From a virus: a DNA stretch of 21,742 bases. The DNA lies in IMG/VR virus record IMGVR_UViG_3300031951_001377, positions 1 to 21,742 of that record, one strand, 5' to 3'. Of the stretch, positions 1,900 through 12,554 are shown in pieces. The position numbers and the translations under genes are program-made. The stretch's first letter is position 1, and each line of letters begins with the position of its first letter. Below the pieces are notes generated by a model that made no database searches, was not told where the DNA came from, and saw only the letters and a program-made list of their open reading frames with translations.

Positions 1900-4317
1900 T
1901 CAAGGCATTAAATATCCTAATGAAACTGCATATACTAATCCTAGGTTGGTGCCACCGCCGGTAGAATTAATAGTAACGTTACCAGTACCCCCGACCGGGT
2001 CAATTGTAATATTAGAGCCGGCTGTAATTTGTGTTACGCCACCACCTCCGCCAGCACCAAATCCTGATGCTGCGGCTGATGATGATATAAATATTGGATC
2101 TATATATGAAGCAGTAAAGGCATATGATGCCGTAACTGTCTGTAAACTATTATTTGCCCAGGATGATGTGCCTTGTAGATTAGCAATTAAACTTGTATAA
2201 TATATAGTACCATTTTTAATTTCCGTGTTATCACCTTGGTCTAAAATAACTGACGAACTAAGAGCCGCGCCGGGTCCACTATTACTACCAGTGTATATAT
2301 AACGGCCAGTATTTGTAAGTATAGTACCTGTAGCATATGAACTTGTAAATATATCCTGAGTGAGCAAATGTACAGTACCGTCTTCGACTGGATTAAAAAA
2401 CAAATTCACATCACGAGGAGCATTGGTACCATCATCTTCAATACTGATATCATATCGCAGTGGCGTATCACCAGTGCACCTAGGATTAACCAGATATACT
2501 GCACGAGCATTTCCTCGTATTTTATAATGACGAGTACCGTTATATTCAACTACAGTAGCAAATGCATTATCACCTGGATCTTTTGAATATGGCACTGGTA
2601 TGTAGATATTTCTTCCACCAGTTATTAGATAATTTGTACCCCTAAATTCATTCGTAAAACCACTACCTATATCATTAACTGCATATGATCCTAGGCTATT
2701 AGGAAATACTATTCCTAGGTTATTAGGTACGTTCGTCTTTGGTGTGTTTTGTTCAGCTCCACATCCTAACAAAGAAATATTAAATGAACTTCGTAACCAA
2801 TATCCTACACCAAAAAATTCAGCCGCGCAGTTTTGTAACTGGGTATAGCTTGATCCGTCTATGCAAAAACCAGCTAATTCGCCAGAACTAGCATAACAAT
2901 TAAGAATATAGGTAGATGTTGTTCCTGTAGATACATAAAATCCATGGCCACCAGCTTGAGCAACACGACAATTACGTATTTGAGCTAGAATCGCGCCTAC
3001 TACCCATATACCATGATCACGCGTGCCTTGTACGTAAACGCTTTCTAGGAGCACTTGGTTAACGTTATTTCCTCCGCCACTGACATCTGGATCAGGTTCA
3101 ATTAAACATATGCCACCCGAGCCCGATCTAATATTGTAATTATCACTTTGTATACCGTAACAGTCGAAACCTTCAAATGTAAGTACATTTGAACCAGTAG
3201 CAAAAATATGATACCCAGATCCTGAAGTTCTCATTTCAATAGTAGTAGGTGATACTAACAGATCAGCTTTTGGTGATCTACCTAAACCTTCAATTGATAC
3301 GCCGTTTATTCCTTGTATTAAAAATGCATGGGACTGAGTTGTTGGTGATGCAAAACTAGCTGTAATATTAATTTCGCCTAAACGTATACTGATTGGTTTA
3401 GTAAAAACAACGGTCTCTGTTATTTGTTGAGATCCAGTATATGACGTACAATCAAGAATAGCACCTGTCGGTGCATTATTTATACCCGCTTGCAGTATTT
3501 GTCCAAAATTTCCAGAACCTGGGTCAAATTCTCGTAATAGACGTACATTAGTTAATGGCTCAGTAGTTATTGATGTTGAAGAACTTGCATATACTGCACG
3601 GTATGGTGTTAGCCCAGAAAACGATGTACCATTATTTATTATTTCGCTAATATAATTGCCAATATACAAATAGCCTTCTATGAAGGCTGGAACAGTACTA
3701 ACACTAGGATCTTGTACATATAATACTCCGGCAAAAGGATCAAACACCCAATCAATAGGATCACCTGGCGTAATTTCTGTTAAATCTGATTTTAATACCT
3801 TAGGATCAAACTGGTCGATAATAGATCCGGAAGCAAATCGTGCAGGAATAACTTGTAGTCTACCGTTACTTCCGGAGAATGATTGATTAGCCGTGAATGG
3901 AAATGTTCCACGTTTTGCATGCGTATACGCGGAATTACTTTGATAGTCTGACGGCAGTGCTAATGCATATGCATGATGTAAACTTGCGGCTGCTGAAATT
4001 TCTCCGGTATCATCAATACTAGTACCTGATATATCACCTGGTTCCGTAAGTACCAGTGATGTACCAATTCCTGTTAACGTGAATCTTACATATTGTACTA
4101 CAGTTTCACCAGATGCATTTGCATATGTATTACCTAACGTTGCCCCAGTACGTACTGCTGTGGTAGTTGATACATCTTGACCAAATGCCTGAAACGCTGA
4201 TATCTGTACACCTGATCCAATTGTTTCATTGCCAGGGTCAAAATTGACGCTAGTATGTGATTTGCCAGATAATTTTTTGTATGCAATTGCTAATTGATTA
4301 TACTGAGTAGTTGCCAT
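1900..4317 (-). CDS. Tail fibre or tailspike with beta-helix domain
   Basis: This 805-residue protein has three parts. Residues 1 to about 222 (from MATTQYNQLAIAYKKLSG to YLYIGNY) are nearly identical to the N-terminus of the fibre at 4861-6603 and probably form the virion attachment domain. Residues about 285-600 show repeated short strands with stacked small, aromatic and Asn residues (ILDCTSYTG, GISIEGLG-type turns, HGIWVVGA, HGFYVSTG, AGFCIDGSS, GYWLRSS), the pattern of a right-handed parallel beta-helix as in pectate-lyase-like tailspikes. The C-terminal part has LQGTSSWANNSLQTVTASYA and then a Gly-rich GGGGGVTQITAGSNITID segment, both common in phage fibres. Tailspike beta-helices often bind or cleave surface glycans, but no catalytic residues can be assigned here. 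It has a long leader (see 4318-4444) and no Shine-Dalgarno. Confidence 0.85.
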   Translation of the reverse strand: MATTQYNQLAIAYKKLSGKSHTSVNFDPGNETIGSGVQISAFQAFGQDVSTTTAVRTGATLGNTYANASGETVVQYVRFTLTGIGTSLVLTEPGDISGTSIDDTGEISAAASLHHAYALALPSDYQSNSAYTHAKRGTFPFTANQSFSGSNGRLQVIPARFASGSIIDQFDPKVLKSDLTEITPGDPIDWVFDPFAGVLYVQDPSVSTVPAFIEGYLYIGNYISEIINNGTSFSGLTPYRAVYASSSTSITTEPLTNVRLLREFDPGSGNFGQILQAGINNAPTGAILDCTSYTGSQQITETVVFTKPISIRLGEINITASFASPTTQSHAFLIQGINGVSIEGLGRSPKADLLVSPTTIEMRTSGSGYHIFATGSNVLTFEGFDCYGIQSDNYNIRSGSGGICLIEPDPDVSGGGNNVNQVLLESVYVQGTRDHGIWVVGAILAQIRNCRVAQAGGHGFYVSTGTTSTYILNCYASSGELAGFCIDGSSYTQLQNCAAEFFGVGYWLRSSFNISLLGCGAEQNTPKTNVPNNLGIVFPNSLGSYAVNDIGSGFTNEFRGTNYLITGGRNIYIPVPYSKDPGDNAFATVVEYNGTRHYKIRGNARAVYLVNPRCTGDTPLRYDISIEDDGTNAPRDVNLFFNPVEDGTVHLLTQDIFTSSYATGTILTNTGRYIYTGSNSGPGAALSSSVILDQGDNTEIKNGTIYYTSLIANLQGTSSWANNSLQTVTASYAFTASYIDPIFISSSAAASGFGAGGGGGVTQITAGSNITIDPVGGTGNVTINSTGGGTNLGLVYAVSLGYLMP
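3650..4317 (-). repeat. Direct repeat copy A (fibre N-terminal domain)
   Basis: Encodes the first ~222 residues of the beta-helix fibre and is nearly identical in DNA to 5935-6603. For example, an uninterrupted match of about 37 nt runs from 3731 here and from 6014 in the other copy. Similarity stops sharply at the hinge after GNY. Confidence 0.85.
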
Positions 4318-4324
4318 ATGAACT

Positions 4325-4342
4325 TATTATTAGCTAATAATA
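4325..4342. repeat. Perfect 18-bp palindrome before fibre start
   Basis: TATTATTAGCTAATAATA is its own reverse complement over all 18 bases. It lies 8 nt upstream of the ATG at 4317, where a ribosome would bind, so a protein sitting there, or a cruciform or hairpin, could control the fibre gene. In such AT-rich DNA a chance origin is possible. Confidence 0.6.
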
Positions 4343-4430
4343 TTAGTAATTATAGTTAACTCTATTATAGCGTATACGTTTAATATAAACATTATTCCTT
4401 TACTATGCATGAATACTAGTAGATTCTATA

Positions 4431-4439
4431 TATAAATAT
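4431..4439 (-). promoter_or_regulatory. Promoter-like motif ATATTTATA
   Basis: Minus-strand ATATTTATA, immediately downstream of the stop of the 65-residue gene and 113 nt before the fibre ATG at 4317. It is one of seven matching sites, and the only one far from its gene start. Confidence 0.45.
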
Positions 4440-4444
4440 ACTAG

Positions 4445-4642
4445 TTATTTTTTTGAGTTAGATTTCTGTACAGCTGATACTGGTTTATCGTTCGGTAAAT
4501 TTTGCGTCGTACTTTGAAGTCGTGTAATTTCATTTGATAGTTTTGTCTGTAAGTTTGCAATAAAAATAGCATCTTTACCAGTAATTGTAATTACATCTAA
4601 TGCCGCGCGTATGGTTTGTATTTCAGCTAGATTGATTTCCAT
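4445..4642 (-). CDS. Small helical protein, unknown function
   Basis: A 65-residue protein (MEINLAEIQTIRAALDVI...) predicted mostly helical from its heptad-like hydrophobic pattern (residues about 3-43), with a polar, Lys/Ser-rich tail ending SNSKK. AAAGG 6-7 nt before the ATG gives it a good ribosome site, which supports the start. It overlaps the end of the upstream small gene by 20 nt in another frame, suggesting coupled translation. No family is recognised. Lying between two fibre genes, it might be a fibre assembly factor, but nothing in the sequence proves it. Confidence 0.6.
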   Translation of the reverse strand: MEINLAEIQTIRAALDVITITGKDAIFIANLQTKLSNEITRLQSTTQNLPNDKPVSAVQKSNSKK

Positions 4643-4841
4643 TGTAACCTTTATTTGAATGTTCGATATATTGATTTTGCAATTTGATAACTAGATTATA
4701 AAACATTTCAACTTGATATCCTTTCAGATCAGCATTACGTAAATAATGTAATAAAAAATCTAATTCTTCTGTAGTTAACTTGTTTGATACAATATCATGT
4801 TTTATTTCAGTATCTGTTATAAATTTATCTGCTAGTGCCAT
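4623..4841 (-). CDS. Small helical protein, start trimmed to 4841
   Basis: I place the start at MALADKFITDTEI (4841), giving 72 residues, rather than at 4910, which would put the first 50 nt inside the 3' end of the upstream fibre gene. The promoter-like motif at 4872-4880 sits 30 nt before the 4841 ATG, the same spacing as at other genes, and the extra N-terminus from 4910 would be read through that motif. The protein is charged and helical (LTTEELDFLLHYLRNADLKG) with a basic/Asn-rich tail. No membrane segment or known motif is seen. There is no Shine-Dalgarno. Its function is unknown; it is paired with the overlapping 65-residue gene. Confidence 0.6.
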   Translation of the reverse strand: MALADKFITDTEIKHDIVSNKLTTEELDFLLHYLRNADLKGYQVEMFYNLVIKLQNQYIEHSNKGYNGNQSS

Positions 4842-4860
4842 AACTAATTGTTTTATATAT

Positions 4861-6603
4861 TTACGATTTAATATAAATATTACCGACATCATCAATAAAC
4901 ATAAGTCCATGACTGTTAGTAGCTAAACCACCAGCATTTGTAAAATTATTATCCACGTCAGAGGTACTATTAATACTACCAACGCCATGTACAAATGTAG
5001 TTGTAATATACGATTGGGGTGTCATATTAGTATCTGATATAGATGCTGAATAACGGAATGCTAAACGTTTAGTTGAAAAAGCGTCAAAAAACAATGCCGA
5101 ACCAGTACCTATTTGATCACCATATTCAAATACAATACCCGAATCTAGATCAGAAGAACCAGCAGCTGATCCAGATGCTAACAAAATAAACTGGTCATCA
5201 AAAACACTATTATTAGCATTTACAAATGTAGTATCACCAGTAAAACTAGCTGATAAATTAAATGTTATTAATGCCGCATTAGGGTTATTAGCATTGGTTA
5301 TTTCTATATAATTGTCTAATGAGCTTCCGAAATTAAAAGTAAATGCATTATTAGTACTATTAAATGAATTCTCATCTATAGTCACTGCACCGATAGTTAA
5401 TTGACCACCGTCCACAGCAGGGTTAAAACTTAATAATCCACTGCCAGTAACTTGACCAGTACCGTTAGATATTAAAATTTGATTATTAGGTGCTACTATT
5501 GACCCGACAAATGCTGTACTAATATTACTAGCAGTCAATGCTGAGCTTGCAGTAGTTGTTAATATGTTAGTACTTGGATTATAAGATAATGTATTAGTAT
5601 CAATAGTTAATGCCTGACTACCTGATGCTGTTACAAATACTGGATAATAACTTGCATTAGTACTAGTATTATCCGTAATACTAGCCGATACAGCCACTAC
5701 TGACCAACTTCCAGTTCCTTGTAAACTACCAGTAAATGATGTCGCTACTACCGGAACACCAAATGATGCTGAGGTAGTACTTAAATTAACAATTGTAACT
5801 GCTGTAGTAGTGTAATCGCCTTGTACTAAAATATTTTCATTACTCGCCGATACAATATTATTACCATTACTTGATGATATATAATTACCAGAACCACCAC
5901 CACCTCCTTCAATACTATTTATAACTTCATCGACATAATTACCGATATACAAATAGCCTTCTATAAATCCAGGCGTTTTAGTTGAACTAGGATCTTGTAC
6001 ATATAATACTCCAGCAAAAGGATCAAACACCCAATCAATAGGATCACCTGGTGTGATTTCTGTGGTGACATTGCTTTCTAATACCTTAGGATCAAACTGG
6101 TCGATAATAGAACCGGAAGCAAATCGTGCAGGTATTACTTGTAACCTACCATTACTTCCAGAAAATGATTGATTAGCTTTGAATGGAAATGTTCCGCGTT
6201 TTGTATGTGCATATGCGGAATTACTTTCATAGTCTGATGGTAATGATAACGCATATGCATGATACAAGCTTGCAGCTGCTGTTTCATTTCCGGTATCATC
6301 GATACTAGTATTGCCTGTTACATTACCAAGTCCAGTGGCTACTAGTGATGTACCAATTCCCGTTAACGTGAATCTTACATACTGTACTACAGTTTCACCA
6401 GATGCATTTGTGGATGTATTACCTAATGCTGTAGAACGTACTGCAGTAGTAGTTGATACATCTTGACCGAATGTTTGTAATGCTGATATTTGTACACCAG
6501 ATCCGATTGTTTCATTGCCAGGGTCAAAATTGACGCTAGTATGAGACTTTCCGGATAATTTTTTGTATGCAATTGCTAATTGATTATATTGTGTAGTTGC
6601 CAT
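4861..6603 (-). CDS. Tail fibre protein, paralogue of the beta-helix fibre
   Basis: A 580-residue protein. Residues 1 to about 222 match the fibre at 1900-4317 almost residue for residue (MATTQYNQLAIAYKKLSG, FDPGNETIGSG, IDWVFDPFAGVLYVQDP), and the DNA is also near-identical. After a Gly-rich hinge (IEGGGGGSGNYISS) the two diverge completely. The C-terminal part is Ser/Thr/Asn-rich with SFTGSLQGTGSW and repeated short beta strands, ending in VGNIYIKS; no beta-helix turns or chaperone-type autoprotease motif are seen. The N-terminal domain probably docks both proteins to the same virion site, while the C-termini differ in what they bind. It starts 14 nt after the upstream fibre stop, and AAGAGAAT lies before the ATG. 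Fibre role is well supported; receptor specificity is unknown. Confidence 0.85.
   Translation of the reverse strand: MATTQYNQLAIAYKKLSGKSHTSVNFDPGNETIGSGVQISALQTFGQDVSTTTAVRSTALGNTSTNASGETVVQYVRFTLTGIGTSLVATGLGNVTGNTSIDDTGNETAAASLYHAYALSLPSDYESNSAYAHTKRGTFPFKANQSFSGSNGRLQVIPARFASGSIIDQFDPKVLESNVTTEITPGDPIDWVFDPFAGVLYVQDPSSTKTPGFIEGYLYIGNYVDEVINSIEGGGGGSGNYISSSNGNNIVSASNENILVQGDYTTTAVTIVNLSTTSASFGVPVVATSFTGSLQGTGSWSVVAVSASITDNTSTNASYYPVFVTASGSQALTIDTNTLSYNPSTNILTTTASSALTASNISTAFVGSIVAPNNQILISNGTGQVTGSGLLSFNPAVDGGQLTIGAVTIDENSFNSTNNAFTFNFGSSLDNYIEITNANNPNAALITFNLSASFTGDTTFVNANNSVFDDQFILLASGSAAGSSDLDSGIVFEYGDQIGTGSALFFDAFSTKRLAFRYSASISDTNMTPQSYITTTFVHGVGSINSTSDVDNNFTNAGGLATNSHGLMFIDDVGNIYIKS
4872..4880 (-). 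promoter_or_regulatory. Promoter-like motif ATATTTATA inside fibre 3' end
   Basis: Minus-strand ATATTTATA, 30 nt upstream of the ATG at 4841. It overlaps the last codons (N-I-Y-I) of the upstream fibre gene, so if functional it would start a separate message for the two small genes. Confidence 0.5.
5935..6603 (-). repeat. Direct repeat copy B (fibre N-terminal domain)
   Basis: Second copy of the ~670-nt repeat, same orientation as 3650-4317, with the copies starting about 2.3 kb apart. Small codon-sized indels (for example SALGN against TGATLGN) show the copies have begun to diverge. Confidence 0.85.
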
Positions 6604-6617
6604 GTTATTCTCTTACG

Positions 6618-8621
6618 TTATGTTAACGATATACTTGTAATTGTACCAGTCCATCCGGCAGCTGCTGTAATGCGTATTAATACATATTGATTTGCAGCTG
6701 CATTTTGGTTTACAAAATTTACTGAACCGGCTAGGCTAGTAGCGAGTGGAGTAATACCTGATCCACATCCGTATGTGTTATCTGTATCTGTTGGTATTCC
6801 AACTGTCGAACCAGGTGCGCCGGTAAGTACGTCTCTCCAAGCTGTTGTACCAGGAATCTTTGCTGATACTTTTATACTTGACCCAATTGAAGCTCCTTCT
6901 GTTACAAATGTTAATCCACTGCCGGCAATTGCAATAGTAAATTGTGCCTTAACACTGTCACCATTTTGGAAGGCACGCAGATAATAACGTGTACCAGTTG
7001 CTCCACTATAATTTGGATGCGATGCAAATGCGTTATCAGGATATAATGCACCTATACCGCTTATATTTCCTCCTACACTACTGCCGAATGCTCTAGTCGG
7101 GTATGTTAAACGTCCAACCGGCGAACTACCAGGCGCAACCCAGACTGCTAACTCATCAGTATTACCACCTGCGACTAAACTAGATGCACTTGGATATTGA
7201 TTTAGGTACGTAGTAACATTAGCTTGGCTATCATATGTAATACCATATTCTAATCGATAATTTTCACCAGTAAATGTCTCACTGGTAGTACTATTGGAAT
7301 TACTATGTCTGTTAACAATTACTCTTGGCGTTGTTAATGCTGTTGAATTTGCTGTCTTTCCAAATGCATTTGTAACAGTAAATCTTGATGATAAAGTAGA
7401 ACCTGTTATAGCTTGGTTGGAGTTAACGCTATGAGTGCTAGCAACTTGTAAACTGCTAGACGGTGATGTCGGTGTAGCAATCGATACAGCCGCCGCTGTT
7501 AATATAGTAGTAGTTATGTTACCTAGTTGGAATGTATTAAACCCTTGTGCAGCATTACTTGCGCCAATTGCTGTAGTTGCAAATGTATTACGATAGTAAT
7601 TATCAATAGATGAACTAAACACATATTCAAATTTATTACAATATGGAATTCCAGATAACCATACAATACTACCCGTATCGATAGAAGCTGATACAGGTGT
7701 TGTTATGCTATACTGAAATAAAGTATCGGTTGATGATGCTAATGGATCATATACCCAATCTACATATGCGGATGATACACCTAATGATGATGATACAATT
7801 GCAAAATTAGAACCACTTCTCCACATTGATGTCGGTATTGATACCGAACCGGTTCTGTGCCACCATAAATTAAATGACTGACCGGAATTTATAAATGAAC
7901 CTGTTTTTGCTGCAGCAAGTGTTATAGTTGCAGGACCTGCTCCTAAATTTTGGCTAGATACTGCATTAGCATTAGCAGTAGTATAACTAAAATTATTACC
8001 ATTAACATTTAATGTATAAGACTCACCAAAACCGACATCATTAGTTACTCTAAATGCATTTGCTGGATAGTTAACAGCTGTTGCTGAATCGGCAGATACA
8101 TCATTATTTAATGTTAAAACGACTGGATTAGTACTTGATGCTATAACTCCTAATCGTATGTTATTGCCACCGTCACCGGCTGTTTGTGCATAATCCATAT
8201 TAAATGCAGTAATATTAGCAAATGCAGTAATACTACCGGACATAGGCGAATATGAAGCAGTTGTATTAGTAGCGTCAAATGATAGCCGCTGATTATTTGC
8301 CCTTGTACTAGTACTAGTAGCATCAATATAATCTAATAACGGTGCTTGTAATGGAGCTAGTCCACGTAATACCTCATTAAATCTATCAACAGCTGTACCA
8401 ATTGGAGTTGTTGTTATAAAGTCAGTAAATAAACCATCTGTATAAGTTCCATCTTCAGCAGGTCCTATACTAAAATTACCTGAGAATGATCCGGAAAATG
8501 ATCCAGATAAAAATGTATCCGCTGCAGAGCTAGATATTTGTTGGTTAGCACCGACGTTTAACTCACCTAACTCAGCTTGACTTCCTGATACTATAACTTT
8601 TTTCCAAGTCGGAGTTGACAT
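6618..8621 (-). CDS. Long fibre or virion surface protein
   Basis: A 667-residue Ser/Thr/Ala/Asn-rich protein. The N-terminus (MSTPTWKKVIVSGSQAELGE) resembles a head-proximal segment I know from fibre proteins of marine T4-like phages, and is followed by a short repeat (SGSFSGSFSGNFS, residues about 39-51). A YVDWVYDPLA segment near residue 290 echoes IDWVFDPFAG in the two paralogous fibres, hinting at a shared beta module. The rest is alternating beta-strand-like sequence without a known enzyme motif. It has a good AGGAT ribosome site and a promoter-like motif 31 nt upstream, and is probably transcribed with the fibre at 4861-6603. It could be the fibre shaft or a baseplate-proximal fibre; the exact T4 counterpart cannot be assigned. 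Confidence 0.75.
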   Translation of the reverse strand: MSTPTWKKVIVSGSQAELGELNVGANQQISSSAADTFLSGSFSGSFSGNFSIGPAEDGTYTDGLFTDFITTTPIGTAVDRFNEVLRGLAPLQAPLLDYIDATSTSTRANNQRLSFDATNTTASYSPMSGSITAFANITAFNMDYAQTAGDGGNNIRLGVIASSTNPVVLTLNNDVSADSATAVNYPANAFRVTNDVGFGESYTLNVNGNNFSYTTANANAVSSQNLGAGPATITLAAAKTGSFINSGQSFNLWWHRTGSVSIPTSMWRSGSNFAIVSSSLGVSSAYVDWVYDPLASSTDTLFQYSITTPVSASIDTGSIVWLSGIPYCNKFEYVFSSSIDNYYRNTFATTAIGASNAAQGFNTFQLGNITTTILTAAAVSIATPTSPSSSLQVASTHSVNSNQAITGSTLSSRFTVTNAFGKTANSTALTTPRVIVNRHSNSNSTTSETFTGENYRLEYGITYDSQANVTTYLNQYPSASSLVAGGNTDELAVWVAPGSSPVGRLTYPTRAFGSSVGGNISGIGALYPDNAFASHPNYSGATGTRYYLRAFQNGDSVKAQFTIAIAGSGLTFVTEGASIGSSIKVSAKIPGTTAWRDVLTGAPGSTVGIPTDTDNTYGCGSGITPLATSLAGSVNFVNQNAAANQYVLIRITAAAGWTGTITSISLT

Positions 8622-8652: not shown

Positions 8653-8661
8653 TATAAATAT
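8653..8661 (-). promoter_or_regulatory. Promoter-like motif ATATTTATA
   Basis: Minus-strand ATATTTATA, 31 nt upstream of the ATG at 8621, in the 54-nt gap after the collagen-like gene. Confidence 0.5.
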
Positions 8662-9052: not shown

Positions 9053-9061
9053 TATAAATAT
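9053..9061 (-). promoter_or_regulatory. Promoter-like motif ATATTTATA
   Basis: Minus-strand ATATTTATA, 23 nt upstream of the ATG at 9029, in the 163-nt gap after phoH. Confidence 0.5.
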
Positions 9062-9888: not shown

Positions 9889-9897
9889 TATAAATAT
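9889..9897 (-). promoter_or_regulatory. Promoter-like motif ATATTTATA before phoH
   Basis: Minus-strand ATATTTATA, 15 nt upstream of the phoH ATG and directly after the capsid-gene terminator. This is the arrangement expected if phoH has its own promoter. Confidence 0.55.
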
Positions 9898-9953: not shown

Positions 9954-11657
9954 TTATACGCGGTCTAAACCATGTACAAATACTTTACCATAGAATTCTG
10001 GACGTACCATTTTCTTAGCGTAACGAGTCATCACACCTTTTCTTGGAGTGAAGTTAGTTGGATCGTACACTAATGGAGTCATGATCAATGGAATATATGG
10101 AGCATATACAGCACCTGTTTCCAAGAATTGACTTCCACGGTATCCCATTAAGATGGTATTTTCAGTCATGTATGGGTTCTTATAAACTTGGAATCTATTG
10201 TTAATAGCACCAACTTTCTGAACACCCATTGCAAACTGCATCTTATCACCGTCAGTATCAGCAGCATATCCTGGGATAGACTCTAGGATAGTTGCTACAG
10301 TTGGAGAACATACTAAGAAGTTAGCTCCACCACGTAAAGTTAAACGGTGAATTTGGTTTGATACCTTTTGAATCTTAGTTCCTAAAGTTTGGAACCAAGT
10401 TCCTTGGTTGTATGCTTGACCAGAGATTGCTCCATTCACGAATGAAGTAGTAGCTGCGTCATATACAAAACCAATTTGAGCTGACCAACGCTCAGTTGTT
10501 TGGGCATTTTGAATCAACATATCCAAGATCTCTAAATCAATTTCTTGAGAGATATACTCAGATAACATTGAAGTCAATTCTGCTTCAGCGTCAATTGAAT
10601 GATAAGCATTCAAGTCTTGAGCAAATTCTGGACTCCAGATTGCCTTTAACTTACGTGTCTTAGCAACAATAGCCTCAGAGCGCAATTCCAAGTTAATTTC
10701 TGGAATATCCAAAGTTGAACCTGGCGTTGCTCCGTTTACACCGATTGCATTTACATCTTCAAAATCACCACGAGTGCTTGAACCTGGTTGCTTATGGTAT
10801 ACTACGTTTGGTGTTACTGTAACACCGGCGGAAGCTAATTTAACAACGAAACGAACAGTATCATTAGTAGCTGCACGAGTTACCAATTTAGTGAATTGAG
10901 GATATACAGCTGTAATATCACCGTCAGCATCAACTAAGTTAAATGCACGTACACCGTTAGTATCAGCACCATCAAGGTCAGACAACTTAACATCTAAAGT
11001 TTGAATTAAAGCAGCAGTTGAACCAGTGCTATTCAAGAATTCAGTGTCAAAGTTAACATCAGCTGGGCTAACTGAGCCGGTTGCAAATCTAGTAGTTGCA
11101 ATAGCAGTAGTTGCAGTAGCAGGCGTTATATTAGTTAATTGAGATGAGCTATAATCGTTAATAGTATATCCAAAACGACCAGCGCCATAAAGACCTTCGG
11201 TTCCGGCAGTAGTACCTTTAGTAGCATCAGTTACACCGAATACAGAATCGTTTTGTGAAGTACGACCAACACCGGATAAGAAATCGTTACCACCAGCTGT
11301 ACCAGTAGTTCCTTGCTTGTTTCCATATTTGAAATCCAAGAAGAACACTAGACCAGATGGCAAGTTCATTGGCTGAACACTAACGAAATCTTTCGCAGCA
11401 ATTTCAGCAAAGATACGACGAACCAATGGAAGGGCAACACCGTTCCAATCTTCTGCATTTGCACCAGTACCAGTTTGGTTTGCTTCAGTTACAAGTTGCT
11501 TGGCTTGGTTCTCTAAAAGAACAGCCATACCACGTCTTTCAACCTCTCCGTTCAAACCTTCCAACAAACCGGTCTTCTGCCACTTCTTTTCCAAAGCGAT
11601 CGCAGCAGCATGTTGAGTTGCATTTGATTCATGAGGTAATAATGAGTTTAAATTCAT
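9954..11657 (-). CDS. gp23: Major capsid protein, T4 gp23 family
   Basis: A 567-residue protein; T4 gp23 has 521. Landmarks align with gp23: KTGLLEGLNG (29-38; T4 KPLLEGEG), LVRRIFAEIAAKDFVSVQPM (78-97; T4 MVRRAIPNLIAFDICGVQPM), KTRKLKAIWSPEFAQDLNAY with the DAEAEL segment, and the C-terminal YRGSQFLETGAVYAPY and RKGVMTRYAKK. It forms the hexamers of the shell. Residues 54-59 (QLVTEA) match the T4 maturation site LTE|A, so the prohead protease probably removes residues 1-58. The segment after about 105, rich in Gly/Thr/Ser, is longer than in T4 and may form a surface insertion. AAAGGA gives a good ribosome site. The gene follows the scaffold by 21 nt and ends at a strong terminator. Confidence 0.96.
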   Translation of the reverse strand: MNLNSLLPHESNATQHAAAIALEKKWQKTGLLEGLNGEVERRGMAVLLENQAKQLVTEANQTGTGANAEDWNGVALPLVRRIFAEIAAKDFVSVQPMNLPSGLVFFLDFKYGNKQGTTGTAGGNDFLSGVGRTSQNDSVFGVTDATKGTTAGTEGLYGAGRFGYTINDYSSSQLTNITPATATTAIATTRFATGSVSPADVNFDTEFLNSTGSTAALIQTLDVKLSDLDGADTNGVRAFNLVDADGDITAVYPQFTKLVTRAATNDTVRFVVKLASAGVTVTPNVVYHKQPGSSTRGDFEDVNAIGVNGATPGSTLDIPEINLELRSEAIVAKTRKLKAIWSPEFAQDLNAYHSIDAEAELTSMLSEYISQEIDLEILDMLIQNAQTTERWSAQIGFVYDAATTSFVNGAISGQAYNQGTWFQTLGTKIQKVSNQIHRLTLRGGANFLVCSPTVATILESIPGYAADTDGDKMQFAMGVQKVGAINNRFQVYKNPYMTENTILMGYRGSQFLETGAVYAPYIPLIMTPLVYDPTNFTPRKGVMTRYAKKMVRPEFYGKVFVHGLDRV

Positions 11658-11678: not shown

Positions 11679-12554
11679 TTACTTTAAGTTAGCTAATTTC
11701 TTCCAACGAGCAGCTAAAGCATTTCCTTCAGAAAGAATTTCTTTCTTTGGAGCAGTACTACGGGTTGGTTTAGAAGCATAGCTTTCTTTGATTTGTTTTT
11801 TTGCTTTTTTAGTTGTCAATGACTCACAGATAGTACTGTAAACTAATTTAACTTCACGCAAGCTATTTGCACGGTCAAAGTTTTCAATTACTTTCATCTT
11901 TTGAGATTCATTTAACTCATAATTTCTAAACAACTTGTTAGAAAATAATAATTTTGCATTAAGAAGATTTACTTCATTAAGTTTAGATTGCATGAATTTG
12001 ATAACACGATAAGCTTCTTCTAGATCCTTACTTGGCGTTTCTTCAGAATCTTCTTCTTCGTTAGTCATTTCTTCAGAATCTTCTTCTTCAGTTAAAGAAC
12101 GGATGATTTCATTGATATCAATTTCCTCGTCCATTTCTTTGTCCTCAGCCTCATTAGCCATTTCTTCTTCTTCACCTTCCATAGGCATTTCTTCTTCTTC
12201 ACCTTCGGTAGCCATTTCTTCTTCATCGCCTTCAAGTTCACGGATGATAGCTTCTAGATCTAATTCTTCATCTACACCGTCCATGTCATCTTCTTCTTCA
12301 ATAGCTGGTCCTGGATTAGGAGTACCATCTTCATCATTTTCATATCCTTCTTCAGCAGGAGCAGGAGCTGGCATTTCTTCATCGTCCATGTCATCCATGT
12401 CGTCGTCCATATCCTCTTCTTCAGCTAAACGGGCAGAAATCATGTTTTGAAGTCTTGGTCTGAATGTTTCTTCTAATGCAATTTTTGCGTTTGCTAATGC
12501 AGTCTCACGAACAGCTTTAGCATCTGCGATTGCCTCTTTTAAGAGTTTGTTCAT
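11679..12554 (-). CDS. Prohead core scaffold, T4 gp22-like
   Basis: A 291-residue highly charged protein immediately before the capsid gene, as gene 22 is in T4. Order: a basic/Ala-rich helix (1-45), a long acidic stretch of Asp/Glu/Met (46-172), then a helical C-terminal part (173-270) and a basic tail (KKAKKQIKESYAS ... ARWKKLANLK). The acidic part holds three tandem 9-residue units (MATEGEEEE, MPMEGEEEE, MANEAEDKE) and two copies of an amphipathic module (LDLEAIIREL at 98-107; IDINEIIRSL at 145-154). Scaffold cores fill the prohead and are cut to peptides by the prohead protease; several L/I-x-E sites are present. The ribosome site is strong (GAGGA). Identification rests on position, charge and layout, not on close similarity. 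Confidence 0.85.
   Translation of the reverse strand: MNKLLKEAIADAKAVRETALANAKIALEETFRPRLQNMISARLAEEEDMDDDMDDMDDEEMPAPAPAEEGYENDEDGTPNPGPAIEEEDDMDGVDEELDLEAIIRELEGDEEEMATEGEEEEMPMEGEEEEMANEAEDKEMDEEIDINEIIRSLTEEEDSEEMTNEEEDSEETPSKDLEEAYRVIKFMQSKLNEVNLLNAKLLFSNKLFRNYELNESQKMKVIENFDRANSLREVKLVYSTICESLTTKKAKKQIKESYASKPTRSTAPKKEILSEGNALAARWKKLANLK
12157..12233 (-). repeat. 27-nt tandem repeat within scaffold gene
   Basis: About 2.85 units of a 27-base repeat (12157-12183, 12184-12210, 12211-12233), encoding the 9-residue acidic units. Units 1 and 2 differ at only a few bases, so slippage could change copy number. Confidence 0.8.

Follow-up and report, generated by a model that had tools for sequence, protein, structure and literature searches.

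A paralogous N-terminal module on two putative fibre proteins of a T4-like phage, with counterparts in giant phages

Two genes in a 21.7-kb viral record (the window, meaning the whole stretch analyzed) open with similar N-terminal modules and end in different tips. The initial annotation read this pair as "one socket, two heads" and proposed that the repeated DNA could recombine and alter host range. The question is whether these modules are a switch or a part that has been moved between fibres. One N-module on two different tips was indeed found, with "tail fibre" and "socket" being readings of its possible function.

Gene order and the two copies of the module

The window contains a T4-type block on the minus strand with terminase, portal, further genes and a gp23 capsid gene. 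The gp23-type major capsid protein (9954..11657; PF07068, E 6.4e-79; phrog_138, E 1.7e-74) was the query for finding relatives, and the portal (phrog_213, 2.9e-76) and terminase large subunit families in the same block likewise place the window among T4-like phages. After the capsid gene, the minus-strand order is PhoH, a collagen-like protein, g3 (6618..8621), g2 (4861-6603), the small open reading frames smA (4626..4841) and smB (4445..4642), and g1 (1900-4317). g3 ends 14 nt upstream of g2, and smA and smB have homologues in the same position in relatives. Just upstream of the capsid gene, gene 11679-12554 contains repeats (12039-12233) with 27-nt spacing that are rich in acidic codons. At the other end of the window are two adjacent minus-strand glycine-rich genes with similar starts (3-497 and 499-1443), the second matching PF21722; a tandem pair in relative L049 (17501-18517 and 18521-19498) has 49% identity.

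The N-module of g1 covers residues 1-226 (3640..4317) and that of g2 covers 5923..6603, as delimited by repeat comparison and family alignments. The copies matched at 3652-4317 and 5935-6603, both on the minus strand, with an offset of 2283-2289 nt. Over the 222-amino-acid module, the copies agreed at 192 of 221 aligned residues and at 86% of bases; apart from small indels, 29 residues and 94 of the 663 aligned bases differed. The second copy matched the first with an E value of 5.7e-122, so the likeness is not due to chance. The 670-nt module was thus correctly placed and measured by the initial annotation, but "near-identical" was too strong. The abrupt divergence that it described was confirmed: in 15-codon DNA blocks, identity was 73-96% as far as residue 226 and fell to 36-40% in the four blocks beyond it, with the likeness ending at a Gly-rich hinge in g2 and at Asn-Asn-Gly in g1.

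A base-by-base comparison gave no sign of gene conversion, which had been suggested as something to look for. Among degenerate codons for the same amino acid, 44 of 190 differed, and these differences were evenly spread (variance P 0.72). The longest unchanged codon run along the module was 16 (P 0.46), and the longest exact match, one of six shared blocks of 27-38 nt, was 38 nt and did not exceed that of shuffled codons (P 0.37). Only non-synonymous differences clustered (P 0.015). We therefore rejected conversion between the copies, there being no conversion patch. Synonymous divergence (NG86 dS, all rough values) was 0.46 between the two copies and 0.69-1.24 between the window and relative L003 for g3, capsid, PhoH and the collagen-like gene. 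Across the 40 codons that could be compared with L003, dS was 1.65 for g1 and 1.01 for g2, as opposed to 0.45 between g1 and g2. The copies therefore either separated once the L003 lineage had branched off or were acquired from a closer relative, and neither would be a very recent event. The g1 and g2 modules are paralogous copies.

Fibre slots of the relatives and the division of slot A

We defined slot A as the fibre directly before smA and slot B as the fibre behind smA and smB, as in the pair of the Flavobacterium phage immuto. A scan of viral_contigs with smA, taking the best 80 of 135 relatives, gave 82 loci together with immuto and the window; some overlap or are near-identical, and 54 of 70 slot-B starts were distinct over 100 residues. 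In slot A of these loci, 72 of 80 readable genes had a WKKV-like start, 6 were cut off by the contig and 2 had the N-module, namely the window and L094, which is L020 again. In slot B, 70 had the WKKV-like start (70 of 77 usable loci), 5 contigs were too short, 3 had none, 3 had an endonuclease at the slot start, and the window was the only one with the N-module. Complete slot-B proteins (n = 48) ranged from 114 to 1669 amino acids. Two genes of the WKKVxxSGS type were present in 8 of 86 sequences (85 loci and the window), these being L020, L025, L031, L044, L048, L049, L057 and L064. Among the two-slot loci found by capsid protein, smA was present in 8 of 8 and smB in 7 of 8. The WKKVxxSGS start is probably the part that fixes slot-A and slot-B fibres to the virion; a literature search for the WKKV strings found no paper in the library used.

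Several relatives showed other features near these slots. L098 has an HNH endonuclease-like gene between smB and slot B (4967-5572), and slot B of L171 (6574-7290) has NUMOD1 and a sub-threshold GIY-YIG match, with L170 and L172 starting alike. Such endonuclease-like genes could drive exchange in those relatives. Other tandem paralogues, a 70% identical pair and a triplet, were seen in L034 (17846-19648 and 19684-21030) and L055 (16834-18909).

Gene order around smA and smB in the window is the same as in the immuto-type pair, and so is the slot-A C-terminal domain. However, immuto-type fibres have WKKVxxSGS starts, whereas in the window the tip before smA and the fibre behind both small genes start with the N-module, and the WKKV start lies on an extra gene. 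This gene is g3, which begins with WKKVIVSGS and has a different body. The g2 tip (4861..5922) follows the Gly-rich hinge, and its residues 396-578 match the slot-A C-terminal domain. When the tip was compared with the open reading frames of the fetched loci, most of its matches, beyond its own copies and L020, were slot-A proteins with a WKKV start (best 9.1e-12), and a few weak ones were in slot B. When the g2 tips of the window and L020 were compared by HMM-HMM alignment with 7 slot-A proteins, chosen because they matched, the probability was 99% and the E value 5.5e-18 over 268 columns. A less selected comparison used profiles from 51 distinct proteins of the 72 WKKV slot-A proteins against 94 open reading frames of the window, L020 and L003. 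The profile covering the last 190 amino acids found only g2 of the window (8e-18) and of L020 (1.1e-10), the next value being 0.66. The profile of the first 45 amino acids recovered the g3 gene of each of the three sequences (1e-11 to 6.5e-10) together with the slot-B gene of L020, but neither g2 nor g1 among the same 94 frames. Ser, Thr and Gly are abundant in the slot proteins and may inflate weak matches; despite this bias, the slot-A C-terminal profile gave no match to g1 or g3. These results rule out g2 as a plain resident gene with an unrelated tip.

The slot-A C-terminal domain directly before smA is therefore on g2, while the WKKVxxSGS start is on g3 rather than on the same protein. 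The slot-A fibre of the window now seems to be two proteins, judging from these profiles, with the N-module opening the tip protein. A module gene behind g3 was found, besides the window, only in L020 and L003. L020, found via its capsid protein, has a g3-like gene, a g2-like gene whose tip is 56% identical to that of g2 over 273 amino acids, smA, smB, and then a gene starting MPSWKKVITSGS. The L003 contig ends before any g2 tip and retains 40 residues of the module. Its rarity among these loci is our reason for treating the divided form as derived, and the order of events rests on few outgroups (L020 and L003). Alternatively, the divided form could be the older one, with fusion having taken place in the other phages.

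The initial annotation had called the tips a beta-helix and an unrelated beta-rich end. The first part held, since the g1 tip (1900..3639) matches Pfam Beta_helix (PF13229, 7.3e-8, residues 417-541), followed by a C-terminal stretch of about 115 amino acids. The second part did not, since the g2 tip has kin in the slot-A C-terminal domains; in Pfam it had only a sub-threshold LptC match. The C-terminal stretch of g1 had weak matches in slot B and neighboring genes of some relatives, including L049. Residues 227-690 of g1 matched nothing among the open reading frames of the fetched loci except the window's own. The g1 tip had no relative in viral_contigs and no PDB sequence match; its one match, in a Levilactobacillus phage, covered 93 query residues at 40%. 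A structure model of g1 residues 227-700 was too poor to use (mean pLDDT 37.1).

The module family and its giant-phage counterparts

Further members of the module family were found in L085 and L087, which are close but not identical, in L088, L092 and L093, and, more distantly, in L154 and L167. At E 1e-3, the C-terminal parts in L087, L092 and L154 gave no match to either tip of the window or to one another; related phages do carry other tips after the same N-terminal domain, a point that the initial annotation had proposed to check. Within one genome, g1 and g2 share an N-terminal domain and differ in their C-terminal domains, and they are the strongest such pair among the 86 sequences; L005, L035 and L037 have weaker ones that are partial. 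Support inside the window group of the module tree was weak (0.14 and 0.34).

The module of the window had no direct match in 50,697 phage records at E 1e-3, and none was found in cellular genomes. By way of L154 and Sinorhizobium phage Phosso, we reached 52 records with 77 places carrying a module of the PHROG 9417 type, and 25 of the 52 have two such places (GenBank and RefSeq copies counted apart). These include the giant phages Phosso, Agrobacterium phage Atu_ph07, Caulobacter phages CcrSC and phiCbK, and Brevundimonas phage Kabachok. One HMM-HMM comparison (hhalign) of 7 window-type modules, with L154 and L167 left out, against 10 giant-phage modules gave 96% and E 4.4e-9 over 162 columns, which is homology across the module, although pairwise identity to the window copies is 18-27%. 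Direct membership in PHROG 9417 was not found: g1 and g2 had no PHROG match at E 0.1, none of 4 module sequences matched PHROG 9417 at E 1 (one matched phrog_26200 at 0.033), and L154 matched it weakly (0.0018). A search of the same literature library for PHROG 9417 found no paper. A structure model of the N-module was poor (mean pLDDT 54.7) and had no PDB match at E 0.001. In a viral structure library, the same model matched a 354-amino-acid protein first (3.4e-10), then a protein of Tenacibaculum phage PTm1 (0.002) and Atu_ph07 proteins of 712 and 310 amino acids (0.01 and 0.028). The latter two are as long as the module proteins of Atu_ph07, which may lend the link slight support from this predicted structure. 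The similarity of g3 to giant-phage proteins was weak and local.

In the 4 of 4 two-copy giant phages that were examined (Phosso, Atu_ph07, CcrSC and Kabachok), the two module genes are next to each other, and their likeness is confined to the first 160-191 residues. The giant-phage copies lie side by side, whereas those of the window are separated by smA and smB. Between Phosso and Atu_ph07, identity is higher for orthologues (38-42%) than for paralogues (31-33%), and the pair is therefore old; for CcrSC and Kabachok, orthologue and paralogue values do not differ (56-60%).

The age of the Phosso and Atu_ph07 pair bears on the proposal that the repeats of the window recombine, deleting about 2.3 kb, fusing the start of g2 to the tip of g1, and thereby trimming or changing host range. 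The repeats do have the same orientation and a spacing of about 2.29 kb, they share six exact blocks, and spike genes with similar starts recombined in engineered Ackermannviridae phages (PMC11414711). However, the copies are 86% identical with even synonymous differences and not homogenized, no fused form was present among the assembled loci found with the module, and none of these carries the g1 tip. The deletion would also cost the phage its slot-A tip, smA and smB, and the two copies in Phosso and Atu_ph07 are old yet still separate. We consider a switch very improbable, and this part of the initial annotation was not upheld. Given the engineered Ackermannviridae phages, a rare recombination event is possible; nothing marks such an event as programmed.

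Contigs L003, L088 and L093 end inside the N-module, which is 3 of the 7 other module contigs compared to 0.57 expected (Poisson P 0.02), two of the seven being close relatives. Perhaps repeats or strain variation caused these ends. Together with the metagenomic origin of the contig, they could indicate that two phages were joined inside g1 during assembly. However, a misjoin by long k-mers would usually require exact matches longer than 38 nt, the maximum here. In addition, the gene that follows g1 (1463-1876) has a homologue in L049, two genes beyond slot B, and glycine-rich genes come next in both L049 and the window. An artefact of this kind is scarcely credible.

Another alternative is that the module is an assembly or trimerization domain, or part of a head decoration, rather than a joint of a tail fibre. 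The genes lie between the capsid and neck genes. In phiCbK, the module protein gp74 is encoded close behind the capsid genes and two genes before gp76, a head-filament candidate (PMC3556154); the main text of that paper does not mention gp74. The slot-A protein of immuto also has a weak PHROG match to a structural protein of the "head and packaging" class. Against these points, CcrSC module protein gp131 is annotated as a tail protein and its counterparts in Atu_ph07 and Phosso have neighbors annotated as tail fiber and minor tail protein, all of these being annotations and not tests. The C-terminal end of L087 has a weak endosialidase tail-spike match, and slot B of immuto is annotated as tail fiber-like. 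We think a head or assembly role unlikely, though it deserves real weight.

The module as a candidate joint

The explanation that we favor, and regard as probable without being secure, is that g2 and g1 serve this T4-like phage as structural fibre proteins and carry paralogous N-modules, with the slot-A fibre divided and the module reused at slot B. A one-piece slot-A fibre would have been divided such that g3 retained the WKKV start and g2 retained the C-terminal domain, with g2 opening with the N-module. The likeliest function of the module would be that of a joint fixing the tip protein g2 to the product of the long upstream gene g3. This partnership is suggested because a tip without a mount of its own directly follows a gene bearing the mount. 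In 14 of 14 module genes measured, a set that leaves out g1 and the second copies of the giant phages, the gene begins 2-51 nt after a long preceding gene; by their coordinates, those of L154 and L167 begin 23 and 29 nt after it. A paralogous module would then have replaced the WKKV start of the slot-B fibre g1, having come from either duplication or import of a whole gene from a close relative. The outcome would be two different tips carried on the same kind of joint, and any part that these tips play in host recognition, like their place on the virion, is something we infer.

g1 is the exception to the close spacing behind a long gene. It lacks the slot-B start, has the module, and is preceded by a 127-nt AT-rich stretch (4318..4444, minus strand) between smB and g1; it may use the same joint as g2. 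The leader is possibly a promoter of its own for g1. It contains the octamer TATTTATA at 4431-4438, which occurs 8 times on the minus strand of the window, 4 of these within the 805 intergenic nt of the region 499-21657. The other intergenic sites (8653-8660, 9053-9060 and 9889-9896) are 23-39 nt before the starts of g3, the collagen-like gene and PhoH, and the octamer is possibly a late promoter element. A promoter scan was uninformative, with 34 sites compared to 36.2 expected.

A stronger form of this explanation is that the joint is portable: the slot-A fibre would have split into a shaft that bears the mount (g3) and a tip that bears the joint (g2), the joint would be reused at slot B, and the two tips would share or compete for one shaft. 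We offer this form tentatively, as possible but somewhat doubtful. A comparable arrangement is the tail-spike complex of Ackermannviridae (TSP1-4, with XD domains in TSP2 and TSP4), in which several spikes of one phage are joined via N-terminal domains and differ in their receptor-binding ends (PMC11414711). Pfam found no XD domain in g1 or g2.

Modular fibres as such are already well known. What is new here is the division of the slot-A fibre around the module, the reuse of the module at slot B, and the link to the giant-phage modules. Taken together, the gene comparisons suggest that both fibres exchanged their usual start for the module, by mixing and matching of fibre parts and not by a built-in host-range switch. 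With undivided fibres in many relatives for comparison, the locus shows a possible way for one fibre to turn into two proteins that a reusable module connects; it ties a module of environmental T4-like phages to that of giant phages, and it predicts the g3 product as the binding partner of the module. If the portable joint is real, then gaining a joint would be a general route from single to multi-part fibres with exchangeable tips, in T4-like and giant phages.
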